The position numbers were made by a program, and so were the translations under genes. A DNA stretch of 38,970 bases from positions 1 to 38,970 of the forward strand of contig JANQNM010000107.1 of the NCBI GenBank assembly GCA_028279625.1, in the 5' to 3' direction. This document shows, in pieces, positions 1,243 to 28,307 of the stretch. The notes beneath the pieces were generated by a model that made no database searches, had not been told where the DNA came from, and was given only the letters and a program-made list of their open reading frames with translations. Position 1 is the stretch's first letter. Every line of letters starts with the position of its first letter. This DNA is from Candidatus Nitrosopumilus sp. (GTDB lineage: Archaea; Thermoproteota; Nitrososphaeria; Nitrososphaerales; Nitrosopumilaceae).

Positions 1243-1788
1243 GTGGCATTAGTTCAAAAAAAGAAAGGAGGACCATATTCAAAAAATGACAAAGATAAAC
1301 GTCAAAAAGAGGTCTTTAGGTTGCATTTTGATTTAGGGTATTCGGCAGTAAAGATTTCAGAGATGATGAGTGTTAATCGAAATACAGTCAATAAGGATAT
1401 CAATTATTGGTATTCAATTTTGATGGAGGAATGGTATAATTTTAAAATCGAAGATTGGGGAGTAAAGCAGCTTCATCGTTTAGAGTCACAAAGTAGTTTA
1501 CTCAAAGAATTAGATTCTATTGAAGAACCATCAGTAAGATGTTCCATTAAAAGAATGATTATTGACATTGATTCAAGAATAATGAATTTTGTTACAAAAG
1601 TAAAATCTACTCAAAAACAAATTACAGATGAAGTAATTGATTTGTTTAATCATTTTGTAGAAAAAAAAGAAATGAAGACAAAGGTAATTGATGTAAATTC
1701 TTTGATGGAAGTAAGTCCTGAAACTGCTGAAAAGATTACAGAATTAATAAGAGAAGACAAGAAAAATAGATATAACATAACTGAATAA
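1243..1788 (+). CDS. Helix-turn-helix DNA-binding protein
   Basis: The product is 181 residues from a GTG start. Residues about 20-55 form a probable helix-turn-helix: a helix, then GYSAVKISEMMSVNRNTVNK, the pattern of a terminase-small-subunit or sigma-like HTH in which the second helix reads DNA. The N-terminus is very basic (KKKGGPYSKNDKDKRQK). The remainder is charged and helical, probably for dimerisation, with no membrane segment. It stands alone on the plus strand, divergent from small hypothetical genes and preceded by inverted repeats that could be its own operator. It may be a transcription factor; a mobile-element origin is possible, but no other mobile gene is nearby. Confidence 0.75.
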   Translation: MALVQKKKGGPYSKNDKDKRQKEVFRLHFDLGYSAVKISEMMSVNRNTVNKDINYWYSILMEEWYNFKIEDWGVKQLHRLESQSSLLKELDSIEEPSVRCSIKRMIIDIDSRIMNFVTKVKSTQKQITDEVIDLFNHFVEKKEMKTKVIDVNSLMEVSPETAEKITELIREDKKNRYNITE

Positions 1789-1858
1789 ATTATTAAAATT
1801 TATTTTTTACATTTTGAAATGCCTAAATACTTTAGTATTACCTTATGAGTTACATACT

Positions 1859-2803
1859 ATGGACCATGGAGAGATAGATGCAATTACAAAAAAAGGATTA
1901 AAAATTCTACAAGAAAGAATCAAAAAAGCAGAAATTCCTGAGACAATACTTGACAAGAACATAAAGATTGCAACATGGAACATTAGAAAACTAGCTGGAA
2001 GAAGAAAAGAAATTTCACTACATTATCTTGCTGAAATTCTATCAAACTTTAACATGATTGCAATTACTGAACTTACAACAAATACAGATGATCTTGAAGA
2101 GATAATGAAAATTTTGGGTCCTTATTGGAAGGTGCTTTATTCTGATGTTAACATGGATGCAAAAGGCAACGGAGAAAGAATTGCTTATCTTTATGATGGT
2201 AGAATCATTGAATTTACTGGATTAGCAGCTGAAGCTGATCCAATTAGACTAGAGCCTGAAAATGAAGATGATGAATGGGTTCCTGCATTGACCTGGTGGC
2301 GAAGTCCTTATCTTGCATCCTTTAAGGCTGGCAGGTTAGAATTTGTGATGTTAACTGCTCATGTAAGATGGGGTGAAAAGCACCATACTGATGAAGAAAA
2401 AGAAGAGTTTCGAAGACAGGCTCTTGACAAACTTGCTGACTGGATTGCAGAGAGAAGGAAAAAGAAGCATGTAAAGGGTAAGGACATGATTGTTCTAGGA
2501 GACTTTAACATCCCATCAATTGACAGTCCTTTGTTTGATGCAATAATAAAAAATGGACTTAAGACACATGAGGATATTCTTGGTGATAAAGGAACCAATC
2601 TTGCACGAGACAAGAGATATGATCAGATTTTTTATCACAAAAAATACGTAAAAAAGATTGAAGAAGCAGGTGCAGTTGATTTTTACGAAGGCGATTATCG
2701 GGCATTATATCCAAAAGAGGACTTTCCATCAATGACTCTTGAGAAATTCAAGTACCAAATTTCAGACCATCTCCCATTATGGATTAATATGAATTTAGAA
2801 TAA
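1859..2803 (+). CDS. Endonuclease/exonuclease/phosphatase family protein
   Basis: A 314-residue protein of the EEP (DNase I/AP endonuclease-like) fold, a Mg2+-dependent phosphodiesterase or phosphatase superfamily. The family landmarks are present in order: KIATWNIRKL at the first strand, the metal-binding glutamate in AITELT, LTAHVRWG, the GDFNIPS motif with catalytic Asp and Asn, and a terminal SDHLPLW with the Asp-His pair. No signal peptide is evident. The ATG at 1859 is preferred; a TTG at 1814 in the same frame would add 15 unremarkable residues. The substrate (DNA, phosphoinositide-like lipid or nucleotide) cannot be told from sequence. It appears monocistronic. Confidence 0.85.
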   Translation: MDHGEIDAITKKGLKILQERIKKAEIPETILDKNIKIATWNIRKLAGRRKEISLHYLAEILSNFNMIAITELTTNTDDLEEIMKILGPYWKVLYSDVNMDAKGNGERIAYLYDGRIIEFTGLAAEADPIRLEPENEDDEWVPALTWWRSPYLASFKAGRLEFVMLTAHVRWGEKHHTDEEKEEFRRQALDKLADWIAERRKKKHVKGKDMIVLGDFNIPSIDSPLFDAIIKNGLKTHEDILGDKGTNLARDKRYDQIFYHKKYVKKIEEAGAVDFYEGDYRALYPKEDFPSMTLEKFKYQISDHLPLWINMNLE

Positions 2804-2847
2804 TCAGTCTAGATCGCTGTAAAAAAGATAAATGATATTATGATGTT

Positions 2848-3009
2848 ATGAATTACCTGACAATAGAAGAATGAATTTCACAAGTTGAAGAATTTCTAGA
2901 TACAGCAACTAAAGGATTAGATCATAGTACTATTGCATGGTTAAAACAGCAATTTGAGGAGAACATAGGAGATTTCTTAGATGAGGATCCCCATAGTCTA
3001 AAAGTTACC
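2848..3009 (+). other. In-frame 5' extension of the PIN gene interrupted by TGA
   Basis: ATG 2848 opens a frame continuous with the PIN gene that starts at 3010, with a single interruption: TGA at codon 9 (2872-2874). After the TGA, 45 sense codons read like coding sequence (helical, charged, for example EEFLDTATKGLDHS) and contain no ATG, GTG or TTG until 3010. An AT-rich promoter-like stretch (aaaaaagataaatga) lies just before 2848, whereas nothing similar precedes 3010. This looks like a former N-terminal extension cut by a TGG-to-TGA change, or a sequencing error, or an unusually long leader. Confidence 0.5.
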
Positions 3010-3924
3010 ATGGTACTTGATGCAAATATAGCTATTAGTACAATTCAGAACTTCGATTCAAAACATAATTCAATTTTACATCATCTAAAAGATAATCCAA
3101 TGTTTTCCATAATTGCTCCTCCAGTCATTGAAAAAGAAGTATTGAAGTTTATTGAAGATGCTGAAGAATTTTCATTAAAAAAAGAATACAAAACAAGATG
3201 GAAGAAATTAAAAAAAGCTATACAGATTAAAGAAATTTCAGATAAACGAATTAAAGAGGCAGCATTAAAAATAACTAAAACTCGCGATCCTAAAGATAAC
3301 GATTATGTTGCATTGTACATTGAAACAAATTCTAATGCAATTCTAACTAGAGACAATGATTTTGATGATTTTTCTGTAAGAAAGTTTGATATCGATAAAT
3401 TAGATAAAATTGTGGGTACCTTTCATAGAGGTGTTTACTCTTTTTTTATTTTTCACGATACACTTCCCAGAGTTTTTGAACTGGCAGGCAAAATTGTTGT
3501 AACCATCATAAAAAATGCTTTAGGAATTTTATCTCTGATTGTTTCAATAATGAAAAATGTTGCAACGCAGTCAATTGAGAAATTAATTGAATTATTTTCA
3601 AAAATTCCTAAAAGTGCTCAAAAAACTATTGGAACTGTACTTTTGATAGGAGGATTACTTTCTTTGATAATACTTGCTTTAAAAGATGATTTACGTGCTA
3701 ATTTTAGTAAGAAAATTTCATCAATGGTTCAAAAAGTTAAAAAAATTCTTAAAAAAATTATTCACTGGATCGCAAAATCTATTGATGTCTTACTTAGTTT
3801 TACTGAAAAAGCTACTCCTTATGGAATTATATCCTTAGAAATTATTACCGCCATACAAGTTAACATAGAAGCGATTTCTAAAGAACTGGAGGAATTAAGT
3901 ATGGATCCTGCTTCTTATGCATAG
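3010..3924 (+). CDS. PIN-domain protein with membrane-spanning C-terminal region
   Basis: The product is 304 residues. Residues 1-125 form a PIN-like ribonuclease domain: MVLDANIAI with Asp4, a glutamate pair near residues 41-43, DPKDNDYVALY with the third acidic site, and ILTRDNDFDDF with the fourth. This is the usual four-acid Mg2+ site of toxin-type PIN nucleases. Residues about 161-181 are hydrophobic and 207-224 (GTVLLIGGLLSLIILA) are a clear membrane span, followed by a basic region and another helix. PIN domains tethered to a membrane are unusual. No antitoxin-like gene adjoins. The start at 3010 is the first available codon, but the frame extends upstream past one TGA to 2848. Confidence 0.75.
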   Translation: MVLDANIAISTIQNFDSKHNSILHHLKDNPMFSIIAPPVIEKEVLKFIEDAEEFSLKKEYKTRWKKLKKAIQIKEISDKRIKEAALKITKTRDPKDNDYVALYIETNSNAILTRDNDFDDFSVRKFDIDKLDKIVGTFHRGVYSFFIFHDTLPRVFELAGKIVVTIIKNALGILSLIVSIMKNVATQSIEKLIELFSKIPKSAQKTIGTVLLIGGLLSLIILALKDDLRANFSKKISSMVQKVKKILKKIIHWIAKSIDVLLSFTEKATPYGIISLEIITAIQVNIEAISKELEELSMDPASYA

Positions 3925-3958: not shown

Positions 3959-5239
3959 TTAGTTTGCAGGAACTGCAATACCTCTATCAATCATCTTTAG
4001 TGCAGTATCGGCTTTGAGACACATTGCCACACCATTTGATGACTTTAAGACAAGAGAATATCCTTCACGACACTCTACTTCAGCTGCATCTACGCCTGCT
4101 GCAATCTGAGTTCGTGGAGTAATCCATGCTAGTTGCAAGTCTTTTGCCTTTTCAATGAAATCTTCTCTAAGTTGTTGCTTGTCTTCATCACTCATGCCAG
4201 ATGCCTTTTCACGGAGTTCAGCCTTGAAGGCCTTCATCTCTGCTATTCTATCATGAATCATAGAACGACGCTCATCAGACATGTTATACTTCATCTTTTT
4301 GATGTGGTCTTTGAACTTTATTTTCAGCTCTGAGTGTTTCTTGTCAAGATCACCGTGTTTTTCACGATACTTCATCTTGATTTCTTGCATTCTCTCATCT
4401 GAAATATCAGCATGTCCCATAATCATTGCCTTGAGGCGATGAGATTTGTCTGATAGTTTCATGGCTTTGATTTTGTCATGCATCTTGTCTTTCATACCAT
4501 CATGATGCTTTTTCTTGTAGTCTTCTCGCTGTTCAGGTGTCATAGAGCACCAATCGGAAATTCTATCAAGTTTAGCTACATCAGTAATTTCAGCTGCTCT
4601 GTCTGATTCAGACATTGCACATAGTCTATCATAATTCATGTGATGTTTCTTGTTTGCCATTTTGTCATGCATCTTGTCTTTCATTTTCTCTTTCATGTGA
4701 GCTTTGTACTCTTCTCTGTGTTCAGAAATAAAGTCACGTTTTCGGTCTTCATCAAGTGAGCAATATCTATCCATTTTTTCTACATGGTCTGCTGCTTTGT
4801 CATGTTTTGCAATGTATTCTTTCTTGTCTTCGTCTGTCATCTCACAGTATCTATCTAGATGTGCTCTCATGTCATGTGCATGATCTTTTCTGTAATCATT
4901 TGCATATTTTTTGATCTCATGTCGGATTCTGTCTTTATGTTCTTCAATCATCTCCTCAATCTCTTCTCGTTCATCTTCAGACATTTCACAATAGTTTAGC
5001 AATCTGTCTGCATATGGAGAGAGTCTTGGATGATTAGAGATTACTTTACGTTTCTCTTCATCTGAAAGATCACAGAATCTGTCAAGCAAATCATCAAGCT
5101 CATAATCGTCATGTTCTTCGTATTTGTCATAATCTTTGTATTCATCATGATCTTCGGATTCAGCAAATGCAGTACCTGCACTAACGCCAAACACTAGAAC
5201 CATAGATAAAACAACGCTTAGAAGTTGTACATTTTTCAT
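3959..5239 (-). CDS. Secreted Cys/His/Met-rich repeat protein
   Basis: The preprotein is 426 residues. The start ATG at 5239 is chosen because it begins a signal peptide ending GVSAGTAFA and lies 26 nt after the TATA-like element at 5261-5270; an upstream start would bury the signal. The mature protein is extremely charged and helical. It contains three repeat units of about 76 residues, each with two aromatic-Cys-x-(Met/Leu)-(Ser/Thr) motifs 28, 28 and 24 residues apart, separated by Lys/His/Met/Asp-rich helices such as MKEKMKDKMHDKM. The last 45 residues form a separate two-cysteine module (VECREGYSLVLKSS, then MCLKADTALKM) that recurs in thaumarchaeal secreted proteins. Metal (copper) binding is a plausible inference from His/Met content; the function is not established. 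Confidence 0.8.
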   Translation of the reverse strand: MKNVQLLSVVLSMVLVFGVSAGTAFAESEDHDEYKDYDKYEEHDDYELDDLLDRFCDLSDEEKRKVISNHPRLSPYADRLLNYCEMSEDEREEIEEMIEEHKDRIRHEIKKYANDYRKDHAHDMRAHLDRYCEMTDEDKKEYIAKHDKAADHVEKMDRYCSLDEDRKRDFISEHREEYKAHMKEKMKDKMHDKMANKKHHMNYDRLCAMSESDRAAEITDVAKLDRISDWCSMTPEQREDYKKKHHDGMKDKMHDKIKAMKLSDKSHRLKAMIMGHADISDERMQEIKMKYREKHGDLDKKHSELKIKFKDHIKKMKYNMSDERRSMIHDRIAEMKAFKAELREKASGMSDEDKQQLREDFIEKAKDLQLAWITPRTQIAAGVDAAEVECREGYSLVLKSSNGVAMCLKADTALKMIDRGIAVPAN

Positions 5240-5260: not shown

Positions 5261-5270
5261 GATATAAAGG
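5261..5270 (-). promoter_or_regulatory. TATA box of the Cys-repeat secreted protein gene
   Basis: On the minus strand CCTTTATATC is centred 26 nt upstream of ATG 5239, the spacing expected for a leaderless archaeal transcript. It supports the internal start over the longer frame. Confidence 0.6.
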
Positions 5271-9424: not shown

Positions 9425-10891
9425 GTGAAAGAGATTATCTTTGTTTTAGCTTTGTTTTCATTATTTCCTGTTGCATTTGCTGATGTTTATCCAGAACTAG
9501 GAATCAAAGTAGAAACTGTAGTAAAGGATCTTAGCATTCCATGGAGTATTGATTGGCTTCCAGATGGAACTGCTCTATTTACTGAGAGAAATGGAAATCT
9601 AAGAATCATACAAAATGGAGAGTTGCAACACGAATCAATACTTTCACTTGGTGTTGGAGGAGTTGAAGGAGGACTGTTAGGAATTGCAGTTGATCCAAAT
9701 TATTCAGAAAATAATTACATCTATCTATACTACACTTACAATGAATTTTTATCAACAATAAACAAAGTTGTCAGATATCAATTTTCAGAGGGAGTAATCA
9801 CCGAGGATAAAGTTCTCATTGATGGAATTCCAGGTGGGCCATTCCACGATGGAGGAAGAATTCAGTTTGGACCAGACGGTAAACTCTACATCACAACTGG
9901 AGATGCAGGAGATCCTAATCTTTCACAAGACTTGAATTCAGTTGCAGGAAAAATTCTCAGAATTAATTCAGATGGAACAATTCCAGATGATAATCCATGG
10001 AATGATTCTCCGGTTTATTCCATAGGACACAGAAATCCTCAGGGAATTGATTGGGATGAGTCAGGGAATTTGGTTGCAACAGAACATGGCCCATCTGGAT
10101 GGAGAGGTTCAGCACATGATGAGGTAAATCTCATAATTCCAGGCTCAAATTACGGCTGGCCAGATGTGATTGGTGATGAAATTCTTGAAGGGGCAATCAA
10201 TCCAATTTTGCATACAGGAGATGATACATGGGCGCCATCAGGTGCAGAGTTTTATGATGGAGATAAAATCCCAGACTGGAGTGGCAAGTATTTTGTTGCA
10301 ACTCTGAGAGGCTCTCATTTGCACATGATTGATTTTGATTTAGAAAACAACAAAGTAAATTCACATGAAAAATTATTCCAAGATGATTTTGGAAGACTAC
10401 GAGATGTCCAAACAGGACCTGATGGTTATCTGTACATCTTAACTAGCAACCAAGATGGAAGAGGATTTCCAAATCCCGGTGATGATAGAATTCTAAGAAT
10501 TGTTCCATTGACTGATGTGATAGATAGTTTCGAGGATTGTGTTGCAGCTGGCAATCCTGTAATGGAGTCTTATCCACGACAATGCAGAACACAAGATGGA
10601 TTACATTTTGTGGAAATAATTTCTCAGATTCCTGAATGGGTTAGAAACAATGCAAAGTGGTGGTCACTAACACAGATTTCTGATTCAGACTTTGCATCAG
10701 TACTAGAGTATCTAATCAAACAAAACATCATAGTTCTCAAAGAAGGAATTACAGTTCAAGGAGATTCCCAATCAAGCATTCCATCATGGCTTAGAGAAAA
10801 TGCAGGTTGGTGGAGTCAAGGATTAATTTCAGATGATGAGTTTGCAAAAAGTATCCAGTGGATGATCAACAACGGATTCATCAAAATTTAG
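9425..10891 (+). CDS. Secreted PQQ-type sugar (aldose) dehydrogenase with C-terminal WW repeats
   Basis: The product is 488 residues from a GTG start with signal peptide ending PVAFA. Residues 25-370 match the soluble glucose/aldose dehydrogenase beta-propeller family: PWSIDWLPDG, the catalytic-site HDGGR (His141), TGDAGDPN, GHRNPQG and EHGPSGWRG. These enzymes oxidise sugars outside the cell using PQQ. A linker with two cysteines follows (EDCVAAGN, RQCRTQDG). Two roughly 37-residue repeats then begin IPEWVRNNAKWW (402) and IPSWLRENAGWW (452), a module common on thaumarchaeal surface proteins. The physiological sugar is unknown. No PQQ-biosynthesis gene is in the window, so cofactor supply is uncertain. 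Confidence 0.85.
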   Translation: MKEIIFVLALFSLFPVAFADVYPELGIKVETVVKDLSIPWSIDWLPDGTALFTERNGNLRIIQNGELQHESILSLGVGGVEGGLLGIAVDPNYSENNYIYLYYTYNEFLSTINKVVRYQFSEGVITEDKVLIDGIPGGPFHDGGRIQFGPDGKLYITTGDAGDPNLSQDLNSVAGKILRINSDGTIPDDNPWNDSPVYSIGHRNPQGIDWDESGNLVATEHGPSGWRGSAHDEVNLIIPGSNYGWPDVIGDEILEGAINPILHTGDDTWAPSGAEFYDGDKIPDWSGKYFVATLRGSHLHMIDFDLENNKVNSHEKLFQDDFGRLRDVQTGPDGYLYILTSNQDGRGFPNPGDDRILRIVPLTDVIDSFEDCVAAGNPVMESYPRQCRTQDGLHFVEIISQIPEWVRNNAKWWSLTQISDSDFASVLEYLIKQNIIVLKEGITVQGDSQSSIPSWLRENAGWWSQGLISDDEFAKSIQWMINNGFIKI

Positions 10892-14116: not shown

Positions 14117-15790
14117 GTGTTTTTTAAAAATCTCAAATACAAAATTACTATTGTGCGAACAATATTAGCAGCATTTACAGTATTTTCATTATTTTACATA
14201 ATGATGATTCCAGCCAATGCAGATGTTACATCATTTTCATTAGAAAAGAGCTTTTACACAACTGAAGAGTATTTCAAATTTGAAGGAATTCAAGATGGGA
14301 AAGATACGATTTATGTCATAATTCGAGATGCTGGTGGAAATTTCAAAGGTATGTTATCCGACCCTACACCTGATCAAGGTGAATTTTCAGTGATTCCAAG
14401 ACCTGTGTCAAATTTCTTTGCATCGACTGGCACCTATAATGCCACGGCATTTACAGATAAACAAAAAGAAGGAGAAGGACTAACAATAAAGATTGAATTT
14501 GATGGACAAAAAATTTTTGAGACTCCAGATTTTGTTCTTGTTCTAAAAGCAATACCAGATGTAACAATTGATGAACTCAAAACAGTATCTTTTACAGTAG
14601 GAATCACAGATAGCTCAATAACAGATGTTGTATACAGTTTAGAAAAAAATCCTCCTAGTGGTGCAACAATTAACTCAAATACAGGGAAATTTACATGGAC
14701 TCCATCAAGTTCTCATGGAAATTCACCAGGAGCAGAATACACATTTGACATTGTAGCAACAAAAAATGAGCAAGTAGATAGAGAGTCAATTACTATCACT
14801 GTAAATGAACCAACTGCATCTCCAACAAAACCACAACCAGAACCTGAACCACAACCAAAAGATGAACCAAAAGAATTAGGTCTAGCATCATTTGTTGATG
14901 AGACTAAAGATCCGCAAACTTACATTGATAGATACAACAATGAAGCAAGTTACAAGAAATGGTTTGATGATAACTATTCAGAATATGATTCAATTTATGA
15001 GGCAGTTGGATTAGAAAAGCCATTAGAGATTCCAGCTCCATTTGTGGATGAGACTAAAGATCCACAGTACTATGTTGATAGATACAATAATGAAGCAAGT
15101 TACAAGAAATGGTTTGATGATAACTATTCAGAATATGATTCAATCTACGAAGCAGTAGGACTAGAAGAACCTAAAGAAATTGCACCATTTGTTGATCCAA
15201 ATTTGGATCCACAGTATTATGTTGATAGATACAATAATGAATTGACCTACAAAGATTGGTTTGATAAAACATATCCGGACATTACAATCTTTGAAGCAGT
15301 TGGATTAGAAGAACCAGTTGTTGAGGAACCAGTTGAGGAAAGAGAGTTTGGAGAATGTGGTGAAGGAACAGAACTAATTGGTGATACGTGTATGATTATT
15401 GATAATTCTGAAGGCGGCGGTTGTCTAATTGCAACTGCAGCATATGGAACTGAAATGGCATCACAAGTTCAATTCTTAAGAGAAATTAGAGACAACACTG
15501 TAATGAGTACAGCATCAGGAGCTTCCTTTATGACAGGATTTAACCAATTGTACTATTCATTCTCACCAACAATTGCAGACTTGGAAAGAGAAAATCCAAT
15601 GTTCCAAGAAGCAGTTAGAGCCTTTATCACTCCAATGATTTCAACATTATCCATTATGACCTTGGCTGAAGATGGTTCAGAAATTGAAGTTCTTGGATTA
15701 GGAATTTCAGTAATTGCACTTAACTTGGGAATGTATATTGTAGCACCTGCAATCATAGTATTCAAAGCAAGAAAATACATTAGAATTTAA
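14117..15790 (+). CDS. Membrane-anchored surface protein: Ig-like, three 42-aa repeats, CFI-box
   Basis: The product is 557 residues from GTG 14117; GTG 14153 (VRTILAAFTVF) is an equally good signal-peptide start. In order: signal peptide ending IPANA; a beta-sandwich domain; a cadherin/putative-Ig domain (about 150-235, with NSNTGKFTWTPSSS); a proline/glutamate linker; three repeats with FVDETKDPQ and DRYNNEASYKKWFDDNY cores; a two-cysteine loop CGEGTELIGDTC; and the CFI-box C-terminal domain GGCLIATAAYG with following helices. A final membrane span (about 525-545) and short basic tail anchor it. The repeats reappear in the next gene 76 bp downstream, suggesting joint function at the cell surface. 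The function is unknown. Confidence 0.85.
   Translation: MFFKNLKYKITIVRTILAAFTVFSLFYIMMIPANADVTSFSLEKSFYTTEEYFKFEGIQDGKDTIYVIIRDAGGNFKGMLSDPTPDQGEFSVIPRPVSNFFASTGTYNATAFTDKQKEGEGLTIKIEFDGQKIFETPDFVLVLKAIPDVTIDELKTVSFTVGITDSSITDVVYSLEKNPPSGATINSNTGKFTWTPSSSHGNSPGAEYTFDIVATKNEQVDRESITITVNEPTASPTKPQPEPEPQPKDEPKELGLASFVDETKDPQTYIDRYNNEASYKKWFDDNYSEYDSIYEAVGLEKPLEIPAPFVDETKDPQYYVDRYNNEASYKKWFDDNYSEYDSIYEAVGLEEPKEIAPFVDPNLDPQYYVDRYNNELTYKDWFDKTYPDITIFEAVGLEEPVVEEPVEEREFGECGEGTELIGDTCMIIDNSEGGGCLIATAAYGTEMASQVQFLREIRDNTVMSTASGASFMTGFNQLYYSFSPTIADLERENPMFQEAVRAFITPMISTLSIMTLAEDGSEIEVLGLGISVIALNLGMYIVAPAIIVFKARKYIRI
14891..15310 (+). repeat. Three tandem copies of the 42-codon DPQ-YVDRYNNE repeat
   Basis: Copies lie at 14891-15016, 15041-15166 and 15188-15310, separated by short Pro/Glu linkers. 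Copies 1 and 2 share an uninterrupted identical DNA stretch of about 53 nt, and copy 3 is diverged and one codon shorter. A fourth copy lies in the neighbouring gene at 18240-18365. The near identity implies recent duplication or ongoing gene conversion. Confidence 0.9.
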
Positions 15791-15866: not shown

Positions 15867-18515
15867 ATGAATTGTAAATTGGAAAAAAATATCATTTTTA
15901 GTATTTTATTAGTAGTAGGCATAGCCTCAATCCCTGTAGCCCATGCAGACATAGAATTTTCATTCAAGTTTGGAGAACTTGGTACTGGAGACGAGGAGTT
16001 AGATAATCCAACAGATGTCATTGTAAAAAGTAATGGAAAAAATATCTATGTTGTAGATAACAACAATAACAGAATTAATGTATTTGATGATGATGGTGAT
16101 CATGATTTTGAATATGGAACATTTTGTAACACTGCATCAATTGAAGATTGTAATGACAATGCAGATGGAGCAGACGAAGATGGAGATGGACAGTTTAACA
16201 ACCCAATCAGTATTGCATTAGATGTTTTTGGAAAATTCTTTGTAACAGATACAAACAATGAAAGAATTCAAGTCTTTGATGATGATGGTGAATTTCAATT
16301 CAAATTAGGATCATCAAATAGTGGAGACGATGAATATCTTGGAGAAGCCAAAGGAATAGTTATTCATGAGTTCTCACGAGAAATTTATGTCTCAGACATT
16401 GAAAGGGATTCTATTTCAGTTTTTAATTCCGCTGGAAGTTTCTTGTTTAAGTTTGATGAGTTTAATGGAAATGATGATTTTAAAAATCCAACAAATATGA
16501 TTATTGATAACTCTAATGATATTCTATATGTTACTGATACTGGGAATGACAGAATTGTAATCTTTGAATTAGTTACTGGTACCACTTGTCCAAGTGGAAC
16601 AGAAAAAGTAGTTGATGGAGTGTGTTTTGTAGAAGAGTTTGGTTCTACAGGTTCTGATGAAGGAGAGTTTGATGATCCAACAGGACTTGCTTTTGATGAA
16701 GACAATGATTTACTTTTTGTTGCTGATACAGATAATGATAGAATTCAAGTCTTTGAAATTGTAGATGGTATAACATGTCCAAGTGGAACAGAAGAGATAG
16801 TTGATGGAGTGTGTTTTGTAGAAGAGTTTGGTTCTGCAGGAACTGGAAATGGAGAGTTTGACTCTCCAATGGGAATTGCAATTGACCAAACAAATGATTT
16901 GCTTTTTGTTGCTGATACAGATAATGATAGAATTCAAGCATTTGATCTAGATTCAGGTCCAGCAATCCTTCTTCCAAACTCTCCTAAGAATCCTGATGCA
17001 TCACCAATTTCGCCTTCATCAGTGATACTTTCGTGGGATGAGCCTGAATTAGATGAAGAAGTTCCTGAAATATCAGGATACAAAATTGAATACAGAAAAG
17101 GTTCTGAAAGTTATCAAGTCATCACTGAAGACACAAAAAGAAAAGTTACATCATTTATCCATCAAAGTCTAGAAGAAAATGAGTTATACTCATACAAAAT
17201 TTATTCAATTAATTCAGAGGGAACAAGTACCTCTTCTCAAATTGTCTCTACAAAACCAACACATACCATTACTCCTGCTGGATTAATTGCAACTGCGATA
17301 TCTCCAAGTCAAATTAAACTTTCATGGTTTCCTCCATCAGATACATTTGGACAAATAATTGGCGGTTATGAGATTAAACGAGAAATTATTCCTAGTGTTT
17401 ATGATTCTGTTGGAAATACAAATGCAGGTACTAGAACATTTATTGTTTCAAACTTGTCTACAGACAAAACTTACACTTATGTTGTTACTGCAGAAATAGG
17501 ATTTGGCGCAACTGGGGAATCAAATCCAGCTTCTGCCACACCAAGAGAAGACTCTACAGATACATCTGAAGAACCAATTACATCGACTGCAGTAGAAGTC
17601 ACAGTATCTACACCACCAATAAAACTAAAGGCTTCAGTAGAATCTTCTACTTCAATTAATCTCACATGGAGTGAACCTGTTGATAACGGAAATTTAGAAA
17701 TTACGGGATACAAGATTGAAGTAAAGAAAGATGGCGGTTCATTTAGTACACTAGTTTCAGATACAAATGACGCAGAAAGATCATACAAGCACACAGGACT
17801 TGTAACGGATTCAAAATACACTTACAGAGTTTCAGCAATCAATGTAGCAGGAACAAGTGAGCCATCAAATGAATCATCAGCTACACCAAAGATTACTGGA
17901 TTAGAGATTAGTCCACTAGGAAAACTAACAATTGATGAGGAGAAATATCTCTCATTTACAGTCAAATTGACAAATAGTGCAATCAAAGACCCAGTTTTCA
18001 GCCTAAAAAATGCACCATCAGGCTCTAAAATTATCTCAAATACTGGATTGTTCACATGGACTCCTACAAGTTCTGAGGGAGGAAAGACATACACCTTTGA
18101 TGTAGAGGTTAGAAAAGACGGTATGTTTGATTCCCAATCAATTTCCATTACAGTAAATGATTCCGTCAAAGATTCAGAGCCAGTAAAGGGACCCGAACCA
18201 ATTACAGAACCTGAACCCGAAGAGTTAGGAATTGCATCATTTGTTGATGAAACAAAAGATCCACAGACCTATGTTGACAGATACAACAACGAGGCAAGTT
18301 ACAAGAAATGGTTTGATGATAACTATTCAGAGTACGATTCAATTTACCAGGCAGTTGGATTAAAGGAACCAACTGAAGAACCCAAAGTTGAAAAACCAAA
18401 AGAATCAGAACCAGAAAAGAAGTATGGATATTGTGGTCCTGGAACTAAACTAATTGATGGAGTATGTACAATTGTTCAAAAGCCAGTGCAAAAACCATGG
18501 TGGCACTTCTGGTAA
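15867..18515 (+). CDS. Secreted NHL-propeller/fibronectin III surface protein
   Basis: The product is 882 residues. A signal peptide ending PVAHA is followed by NHL-type propeller blades (about 30-365; repeated NPTDVIV, IYVVDNNNNRI and LLFVADTDNDRIQ strands). Three fibronectin type III domains (about 368-460, 468-560, 582-675) each start with an S-x-x-S-x-x-L-x-W core. A putative-Ig domain follows (about 676-765, SNTGLFTWTPTSS), then one 42-residue repeat (791-832) of the type in the preceding gene, and a two-cysteine loop CGPGTKLIDGVC before the end PWWHFW. There is no membrane span, so it is probably released or held by a partner. Two blades carry inserted CPSGTE...DGVC loops. The role is probably adhesion or matrix, by inference. 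Confidence 0.88.
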   Translation: MNCKLEKNIIFSILLVVGIASIPVAHADIEFSFKFGELGTGDEELDNPTDVIVKSNGKNIYVVDNNNNRINVFDDDGDHDFEYGTFCNTASIEDCNDNADGADEDGDGQFNNPISIALDVFGKFFVTDTNNERIQVFDDDGEFQFKLGSSNSGDDEYLGEAKGIVIHEFSREIYVSDIERDSISVFNSAGSFLFKFDEFNGNDDFKNPTNMIIDNSNDILYVTDTGNDRIVIFELVTGTTCPSGTEKVVDGVCFVEEFGSTGSDEGEFDDPTGLAFDEDNDLLFVADTDNDRIQVFEIVDGITCPSGTEEIVDGVCFVEEFGSAGTGNGEFDSPMGIAIDQTNDLLFVADTDNDRIQAFDLDSGPAILLPNSPKNPDASPISPSSVILSWDEPELDEEVPEISGYKIEYRKGSESYQVITEDTKRKVTSFIHQSLEENELYSYKIYSINSEGTSTSSQIVSTKPTHTITPAGLIATAISPSQIKLSWFPPSDTFGQIIGGYEIKREIIPSVYDSVGNTNAGTRTFIVSNLSTDKTYTYVVTAEIGFGATGESNPASATPREDSTDTSEEPITSTAVEVTVSTPPIKLKASVESSTSINLTWSEPVDNGNLEITGYKIEVKKDGGSFSTLVSDTNDAERSYKHTGLVTDSKYTYRVSAINVAGTSEPSNESSATPKITGLEISPLGKLTIDEEKYLSFTVKLTNSAIKDPVFSLKNAPSGSKIISNTGLFTWTPTSSEGGKTYTFDVEVRKDGMFDSQSISITVNDSVKDSEPVKGPEPITEPEPEELGIASFVDETKDPQTYVDRYNNEASYKKWFDDNYSEYDSIYQAVGLKEPTEEPKVEKPKESEPEKKYGYCGPGTKLIDGVCTIVQKPVQKPWWHFW
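16587..16964 (+). repeat. 189-bp direct repeat inside the NHL propeller
   Basis: The segment from tgtccaagtgg at 16587 recurs at 16776, a period of 189 nt (63 codons). Each period carries one propeller blade (FVADTDNDRI) plus an inserted two-cysteine loop. The DNA copies are closely similar, indicating recent blade duplication. Confidence 0.75.
18240..18365 (+). repeat. Fourth copy of the 42-codon repeat, in the neighbouring gene
   Basis: It differs from copy 1 of the upstream gene by only a few bases over 126 nt, and the protein differs mainly at Ile/Val, Glu/Gln and Glu/Lys positions. The preceding residues (EELGIASFV against KELGLASFV) are also shared, so the duplicated unit extends slightly upstream. 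Confidence 0.9.
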
Positions 18516-27755: not shown

Positions 27756-28307
27756 ATGCAGAAAACATTTGCAATAACATTACTTGCAATATCACTAATT
27801 GCAGTAATGATGGTCGGAATGCAAATTGAACCTGTTGAAGCAAAAAAAGCACAAGGAACTTCTCAACAACAATATGGAAGCGCAACAAAACACATTGTTT
27901 GCGGAGATAGATTATGTTCTGAAGTAGGAAAGGATGTAGCTCTAAATGTTTCAGGAGATACAAAACATCTGAGACAATCAACTCATGATGACACTATGAA
28001 GGAGCATGGTGAGAAGAAACACAGTGATTCTATGAAGAGTTATAGTGACAAAAAATACAGTGCTTTATCTGAATCTATAACAGGTGCTGTTCTCAAAAGC
28101 AATAATTTTGATAGAACATCTGGTACAGTTACAGTTGTAATTGACGCATATGAAGATGGAAAAATCAAGATTGACATACCACAAATTAACACTGTAGACA
28201 TGGTAATTGTCGATGGTGAGGAGTGGGATGATGCTTATGTTTATGGTGACACAGTCAAAGTGTATTTCTACGCAGGTACTGAAAAAATTGAAATCATTGG
28301 AAATTAA
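27756..28307 (+). CDS. Secreted small protein with HIVCGDRLCSE motif
   Basis: The product is 183 residues. A signal peptide (MQKTFAITLLAISLIAVMMV, cleavage near VEA) is followed by QYGSATKHIVCGDRLCSEVG, a two-cysteine segment that recurs at the N-terminus of thaumarchaeal exported proteins. Next comes a His/Lys/Asp-rich helix (KEHGEKKHSDSMKSYSDK) and then a beta-rich domain (about 110-183, GTVTVVIDAYEDGKIKIDI). TATA-like gtttaaatt lies about 27 bp before the ATG. The localisation is extracytoplasmic. The function is unknown; the His-rich stretch could bind metal, which is inference. Confidence 0.78.
   Translation: MQKTFAITLLAISLIAVMMVGMQIEPVEAKKAQGTSQQQYGSATKHIVCGDRLCSEVGKDVALNVSGDTKHLRQSTHDDTMKEHGEKKHSDSMKSYSDKKYSALSESITGAVLKSNNFDRTSGTVTVVIDAYEDGKIKIDIPQINTVDMVIVDGEEWDDAYVYGDTVKVYFYAGTEKIEIIGN

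Follow-up and report, generated by a model that had tools for sequence, protein, structure and literature searches.

The gene at positions 3959–5239 on the minus strand of the window (the whole stretch of 38,970 nt from a Candidatus Nitrosopumilus sp. that was analysed) encodes a protein, P0001, which is best read, with a probability of roughly 45%, as a secreted, modular and mostly helical envelope protein; disulfide-stapled modules would form an acidic arm of variable length, followed by a neutral tail and by a WING-49 domain that would hold or target the arm. From the N-terminus, P0001 starts with a signal-like segment and an acidic stretch, which are followed by two modules whose cysteines are 28 residues apart (28-type), one module with a distance of 24 (24-type), a Cys-free tail, and the WING-49 domain. 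The respective features of the window are the following.

3959–5239, minus strand: coding sequence of P0001, 426 residues plus stop, with the ATG at 5239.
5262–5269, minus strand: TATA-like box, CTTTATAT, 22 nt ahead of the ATG.
5162–5239, minus strand: signal-peptide-like segment, residues 1–26, from reading of the sequence and the similar N-termini of orthologues.
4943–5101, minus strand: module 1, 28-type, Cys 56 and Cys 84 (E = 2.5e-21 with the 57-module profile, which includes module 1).
4712–4873, minus strand: module 2, 28-type, Cys 132 and Cys 160 (E = 2.8e-23 with the 57-module profile, which includes module 2).
4658–4696, minus strand: 12-nt tandem DNA repeat of 3.2 copies, with an (MKDK)-like run (Tandem Repeats Finder).
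4502–4633, minus strand: module 3, 24-type, Cys 207 and Cys 231, with a WC.MTPEQR signature (32-copy alignment of the 24-type).
4127–4501, minus strand: Cys-free, Lys/Met/His-rich, probably helical tail, approximately residues 247–371 (low-confidence helix prediction, composition and net charge).
3974–4117, minus strand: C-terminal WING-49 domain with Cys 390 and Cys 407 (NF058652, E = 1.9e-17).

Orthologues were sought in 151 genomes of the family, 112 of which gave a match at E ≤ 0.001, many via the C-terminal domain only. The comparison set consists of the best 30 loci plus two named loci (from N. salaria BD31 and a Nitrosopumilus MAG); with a duplicated protein counted once, this gives 31 distinct orthologues of 320 to 594 residues, all from Nitrosopumilaceae and leaning to close relatives. 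The mechanically called open reading frame of P0001 begins further upstream, at a TTG; the ATG at 5239 is taken as the start because the TATA-like box lies at a near-fixed distance in the orthologues, 21–23 nt ahead of the aligned ATG in 27 of the 30 that have upstream sequence (it is missing in L032, L033, and L034; L017 has no upstream sequence). In the window's own genome the box pattern with its exact spacer occurs once, which is here, and a reversed control pattern also occurs once. The spacing between box and ATG suggests a leaderless transcript. As judged by eye, several Nitrosopumilus orthologues have stretches of the type AGGC.TGAA and others like ATTTGTAATAA in common, approximately 30–100 nt before the ATG; these may be a regulatory site and were not seen ahead of the window copy. 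The N-terminus is signal-like, which makes the protein secreted-looking and supports its designation as secreted in the initial annotation.

Cysteines are found at residues 56, 84, 132, 160, 207, 231, 390, and 407 of P0001, with successive spacings of 28, 48, 28, 47, 24, 159, and 17. The initial annotation had given the first five of these correctly and had taken them as signs of three regular units of about 76 residues; the last two were absent from it. One pair of equal spacings alone arises in 19.6% of 20,000 shuffles and is, hence, unsurprising; an alternating pattern (a, b, a, b ± 1, with a ≥ 15) arises in 0.055% of shuffles. The segments around the first and second Cys pairs are alike (shuffle Z 13.9), and the third resembles the first (Z 9.3) and the second (Z 4.7). 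The third unit is a module of a distinct type. A repeat period of 76 residues is ruled out by the 72 linkers between adjacent modules of the 31 orthologues, which vary from 30 to 70 residues, while the distance between the cysteines within a module is fixed: 28 in 57 cases, 24 in 32, 27 in 15, and 29 in two. The period looked regular because the linkers of the window protein (48 and 47) happen to be similar; the earlier observation is, therefore, real but misparsed. Every one of the 31 orthologues has an even number of cysteines, as expected if they come and go in pairs, and with a mean conservation of 0.99 the cysteines of the module region are the best conserved module residues.

A module comprises about 54 residues. 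The 28-type profile matches the area of module 3 weakly (E = 0.021 and 0.18), and the 24-type carries its own signature, WC.MTPEER, in 32 aligned copies. The alignment of 57 modules of the 28-type was built on the two cysteines, which are therefore present throughout; position C+2 is Met or Leu, C+7 is Lys or Arg, and C+14 is His in 73% of the modules and otherwise mostly Tyr (15%) or Asn (7%). A C2H2-like metal site made up of the cysteines and the C+14 His, considered as a candidate, is weakened by that frequency of 73% among the 57 modules. An AlphaFold2 model of module 2, made with five other modules aligned, has four short helices (pLDDT 85.5, pTM 0.66), in agreement with the helical hairpins proposed earlier. 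It places the two cysteines (15 and 43 of the module) at the ends of helices 1 and 3, where they flank the hairpin of helices 2 and 3; judged by the model, the pair most likely forms a disulfide that staples this hairpin, but a metal site is a possible alternative. Modelling of the full length gave a poor result (mean pLDDT 53.3, pTM 0.25), which lends no support to an extended arm. Fold searches with the full model and with the module are of little help in judging novelty: for the module alone, none of five chains compared reached Z ≥ 2, Foldseek returned one PDB match for it at E = 8.7, which leaves room for a relation, and the matches of the (poor) full model are mainly generic helical hairpins at residues 319–372, with a best Z of 5.7. 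Among the seven proteins for which scores were obtained, no Pfam or NCBIfam model above its cut-off spans a 28-type module.

The fourth Cys pair (390/407) belongs to the WING-49 domain and not to the modules. Residues 375–422 of P0001 score 63.1 bits against NF058652, which passes the curated cut-off of 22, and all 31 orthologues match this model at E ≤ 0.1. The full alignment contains 19 invariant columns, 17 of which fall between residues 339 and 420; the other two are M1 and A26. Conservation, hence, centres on the end of the tail and on WING-49, which make up the core, and variation on the modules: an orthologue has zero to four modules of the 27–29 type and zero to two of the 24-type, and L035 has neither, with a Cys pair 36 apart. 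Up to the last module the protein is acidic in all 31 orthologues (−8.7 to −26.3 net per 100 residues), and the tail is near neutral in the same set (−5 to +8 in total). With a net charge of −15 over 400 residues, 53 of which are Lys, the window member belongs to the least acidic ones. In the predicted tail helices, Met, His, and Lys tend to share a face with the hydrophobic residues, and Asp and Glu tend to lie on the opposite one, which is not decisive. One orthologue, that of genome G046 (L084, 7499–9085, minus strand), starts with approximately nine DDDDRY repeats; antisense to it, 8713–9132 of L084 form an open frame of 139 codons.

WING-49 is found at nine places in the window's own genome, the target gene included. 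Eight of these proteins were compared, P0001 among them; one is rhodanese-like, one metallo-beta-lactamase-like (named by eye), and two resemble each other (L090 and L092). The domain lies near the N-terminus in L089 and L096 and is internal in L091 and L095. Given such positions away from the C-terminus in several proteins, it is to be regarded as an extracellular domain common to them and not as a tag of the C-terminus, which also lowers the confidence in the reading given at the outset. It might serve attachment, targeting, or a common extracellular interaction.

The range of the module is narrow. In a profile search at the level of the class, 50 of 300 sampled genomes matched (E ≤ 0.001), from four of 69 genera, and at the level of the phylum 27 of 398 (E ≤ 1e-5), from three of 163 genera; all of them are Nitrosopumilaceae, and among the genomes sampled at both levels no match was obtained outside this family. 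Ten further loci with the module were inspected. Two (L078 and L081) belong to the family of the target protein; the other eight carry a single module in three other architectures. In L074, L075, L076, L080, and L082 it is followed by a region of about 220 residues without assignment, in L079 by 22-residue LTPEER-like repeats, and in L073 (own genome) and L077 it lies between an extracellular-looking N-terminal region and a different kind of C-terminal end. L073 (2459–3319, minus strand, contig C109) has one C-X27-C module and an IPAWV-type C-terminus. At somewhat less than even odds, the C-X27-C module may be an uncatalogued small domain confined to Nitrosopumilaceae, a disulfide-stapled helical building block that these archaea would have distributed over four or more kinds of secreted protein; its tandem multiplication would determine how long an acidic arm at the ammonia oxidizers' surface becomes.

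Within the genus the gene is patchy. A match over the full alignment at E ≤ 1e-30, a cut-off at which more divergent copies could be missed, is present in 41 of 95 genomes; when only genomes with a completeness of 90% or more and a contamination of 5% or less are considered, 31 of 56 match and 25 do not. Three single-contig genomes (G059, G086, and G119) have neither a full-alignment match (E ≤ 1e-30) nor a module match (E ≤ 0.001), so the absence of the gene is not just a matter of assembly gaps. The median genome size of carriers among the 56 genomes is 1.7 Mb, versus 1.4 Mb for non-carriers (Mann-Whitney p = 0.008, from rounded sizes and ignoring relatedness). No paper naming the gene in N. 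maritimus was identified among the published locus tags considered: Nmar_0328–0331 are cation transporters, and Nmar_0373 occurs in 29 of 30 thaumarchaeal genomes, a distribution at odds with a patchy gene. The target protein was not found in the accessible portions of the literature on WING-49, on copper and secreted proteins of ammonia-oxidizing archaea, on Nitrosopumilus, on DUF3106, and on helical or disulfide-containing secreted proteins, which does not establish its absence from print; likewise, the available parts of PMC9723733, PMC12153357, PMC6593220, and PMC11153153 contain nothing on it.

If the protein is built as proposed, each C-X27-C module would be a compact helical unit whose Cys pair, close to one and the same end of a hairpin, staples it by a disulfide. 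Modules and charged helical linkers would together make up the acidic N-terminal arm, the length of which would change by gain and loss of modules, and the neutral helical tail with WING-49 would attach this arm to the cell surface, or to a partner located there, or direct it to either of them. The arm's purpose could, as a guess, be that of a spacer, a matrix component, or a cation-rich brush. The envelope-protein model leaves the unusual Met and His content unexplained. Ammonium and copper reach marine ammonia oxidizers at their outer envelope, of which, in our assessment, few proteins are understood besides the S-layer; a small lineage-specific domain with clear boundaries, which folds well by prediction, provides a handle on that envelope.

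The Met and His content had led to the initial proposal of an extracellular metal buffer, and the richness itself is borne out: Met makes up 6.5% and His 5.4% of P0001, versus medians of 1.9% for each among 38 mechanically chosen open reading frames of the window, and P0001 has the highest Met+His sum of these 38. In the comparison with the 31 orthologues the sum is 12.2% for P0001 and ranges from 7.6 to 13.4% among them. In such a buffer Met, His, and perhaps Cys of linkers and tail would serve as loose ligands for Cu(I), Cu(II), or Zn(II), in the manner of the silver sponge SilE, so that composition would count more than exact position. Conservation, taken as the mean share of orthologues having the P0001 residue (residues 45–374, columns containing 20 letters or more), amounts to 0.57 for Met and 0.45 for His, no better than 0.57 for Lys, 0.59 for Asp, and 0.60 for Glu; Met is replaced mostly by Leu, Ala, and Ile, and His mostly by Lys, Tyr, and Arg. 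Thus, most of the positions are not kept, but not all of them can be dismissed because some are well kept (M335 in 29 of the 31, H312 in 28, H70 in 26, and H295 in 25). The ligand-like motifs claimed earlier fared unevenly. MxxxM is enriched in P0001 (5 observed, 1.62 expected, p = 0.02), where part of the run overlaps the 12-nt tandem DNA repeat at 4658–4696, but it is near chance in the family (56 versus 51.4); HxxM is near expectation in P0001 (2 versus 1.6) and occurs 40 times versus 29.3 expected in the 31 orthologues, which favours a buffer. MxxH (24 versus 29.0) and MxxM (35 versus 51.7) are not enriched, and taken singly, with 200 shuffles each, two of the 31 orthologues reach p < 0.05 for HxxM, one for MxxH, and three for MxxxM. 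P0001 has no CxxC or CxxxC.

In the neighbourhood, none of ten chosen window ORFs matches a copper or metal-resistance family at E ≤ 0.001, and four of the ten match nothing; those that do encode an exonuclease/phosphatase-fold protein, a PIN domain, a uracil-DNA glycosylase, and a glucose/sorbosone dehydrogenase, besides a small zinc-finger-like protein whose score barely exceeds the cut-off and a match to sigma-70 region 4 that stays below its own. No family of the metal-resistance kind was recognized among eight neighbours tested in L084 and L036 either; one neighbour in L084 has a putative zinc/iron-chelating CxxCxxCC domain. A copper island was, hence, not found among the ORFs tested at these three loci. 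The gene for the uracil-DNA glycosylase is likewise found close to the orthologue in L036, L037, L083, L084, and L086, and not in L085; the locus is partly syntenic and gives no functional hint. The genes for the sigma-70 region 4 match, the exonuclease/phosphatase fold, and the PIN domain occupy 1243–3924 (plus strand), between a gene of 89 residues and the target; in L036, the corresponding interval contains an aldo/keto reductase. Further away on the plus strand, two adjacent secreted-looking proteins (14117–15790 and 15867–18515) have repeats of about 50 residues in common which start FVDETKDPQ.YVDRYNNE, the former also having a putative Ig domain, and another secreted-looking protein (27756–28307), which is rich in His, Lys, and Met over one stretch, matches no Pfam family at E ≤ 0.001. 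The glucose/sorbosone dehydrogenase-like protein (9425–10891, plus strand) contains a C-X14-C segment (CVAAGNPVMESYPRQC) and two C-terminal tryptophan-rich repeats. A Cys pair 15 apart also occurs in five target orthologues (L007, L009, L023, L025, and L027), and the three of these compared in full have a segment similar to CVAAGNPVMESYPRQC.

All members of the genus are thought to be ammonia oxidizers. A gene missing from many ammonia oxidizers is unlikely to be essential for the copper supply of ammonia oxidation, and 25 of the 56 good-quality genomes of the genus are without a match at E ≤ 1e-30. Together with the poorly kept positions, the lack of family-wide enrichment of MxxxM, MxxH, and MxxM, the absence of CxxC and CxxxC, and the ten neighbours, this makes the extracellular copper or zinc buffer an unlikely explanation; weak or composition-driven binding of metal is possible, and the copper-buffer reading is unproven and not favoured. 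What endures of the initial interpretation is a secreted-looking protein with helical hairpins. Evolution keeps the pairing of the cysteines and the C-terminal domain and not most of the Met and His positions suggestive of copper, which redirects the effort to the former. The same patchiness speaks against an acidic cation brush, by which the module arm would add negative charge to the envelope and help to hold ammonium or Ca2+ near the cell. The module half is net negative in all 31 orthologues, as it should be for such a role, but the low net charge and the many Lys residues of the window member speak against it, and the idea appears rather improbable. The S-layer of N. maritimus has been proposed to be a negatively charged trap for ammonium (PMC11153153); an acidic arm at the surface is plausible in this light, which is no proof as regards the target protein.

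It is also possible, though unlikely, that the protein is an extracytoplasmic chaperone, whose charged, Met-lined amphipathic helices (similar to those of Spy/CpxP/ZraP or DUF3106) would bind unfolded or hydrophobic surfaces under the S-layer. Helix starts such as LSDEEK and LTDEQK recur in modules and tail, and the tail has the Met/His/Lys face and the opposite acidic one mentioned above. Over the 31 members, 26 Pfam families were matched at E ≤ 0.1; DUF3106 is among them, with 20 of the 31 members, and its cut-off of 24.3 bits is passed by the orthologue L011 (31.4) and by the module protein L079 (28.6). However, P0001 itself stays at 16.5 bits, and in a genome search DUF3106 matched one of seven genomes (E ≤ 0.01), that of L079, and not the target orthologues. 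For LTXXQ, an orthologue's tail gives a single weak hit (E = 0.32, 12.3 bits), but this family stays below its cut-off in the seven genomes searched and at E ≤ 10 also matches nine of 14 control genomes, so that the value of 0.32 means little; Metal_resist reaches E = 0.044 at best, in one of the 31. Chance matches come easily with charged helices, as presumably did that of one member to an apolipoprotein (E = 0.00026, 21.2 bits, cut-off 90; one of 31), and no stress gene was recognized among the ten neighbours.

The WING-49 model (NF058652) covers the C-terminal 48 residues of P0001 only and not the repeated modules. DUF3106 (PF11304) is characterized by helices that start with [LM][ST]PEER-type motifs after a Trp, and the target family likewise has short charged helices starting in this way; the matches above the cut-off lie in the 24-type region of L011 and at residues 87–163 of L079, mainly in its repeats. 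L022 (21.8 bits) stays below the cut-off like P0001, and no passing match covers a whole 28-type module. Spy, CpxP, and ZraP are all-helical, extracytoplasmic proteins; the target resembles them (LTXXQ, PF07813) in being all-helical by prediction and in its LTxxQ-like helix starts, but differs in that no hit exceeds the 24.3 bits of PF07813, the best one being that of the G032 orthologue, in one of seven genomes, and in the window's own genome nothing matches at E ≤ 10.

Metal sponges of the SilE/PcoE type are defined by HxxM and MxxH as ligand motifs. The target is, like them, secreted-looking and rich in Met and His. According to PMC5008109, SilE is disordered until it binds silver, and its His/Met motifs are important. 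The target, in contrast, has predicted helical modules and paired cysteines, and such motifs are mostly not enriched across its family. The arrangement of α-hairpinins and CHCH proteins, in which paired CX3C or CX9C motifs on both helices hold a hairpin, comes close in that the Cys pairs of the target are also predicted to bracket a helical hairpin. It differs in the spacing, since none in P0001 is 4 or 10; instead, a single cysteine stands at each end, with 27 residues between them.
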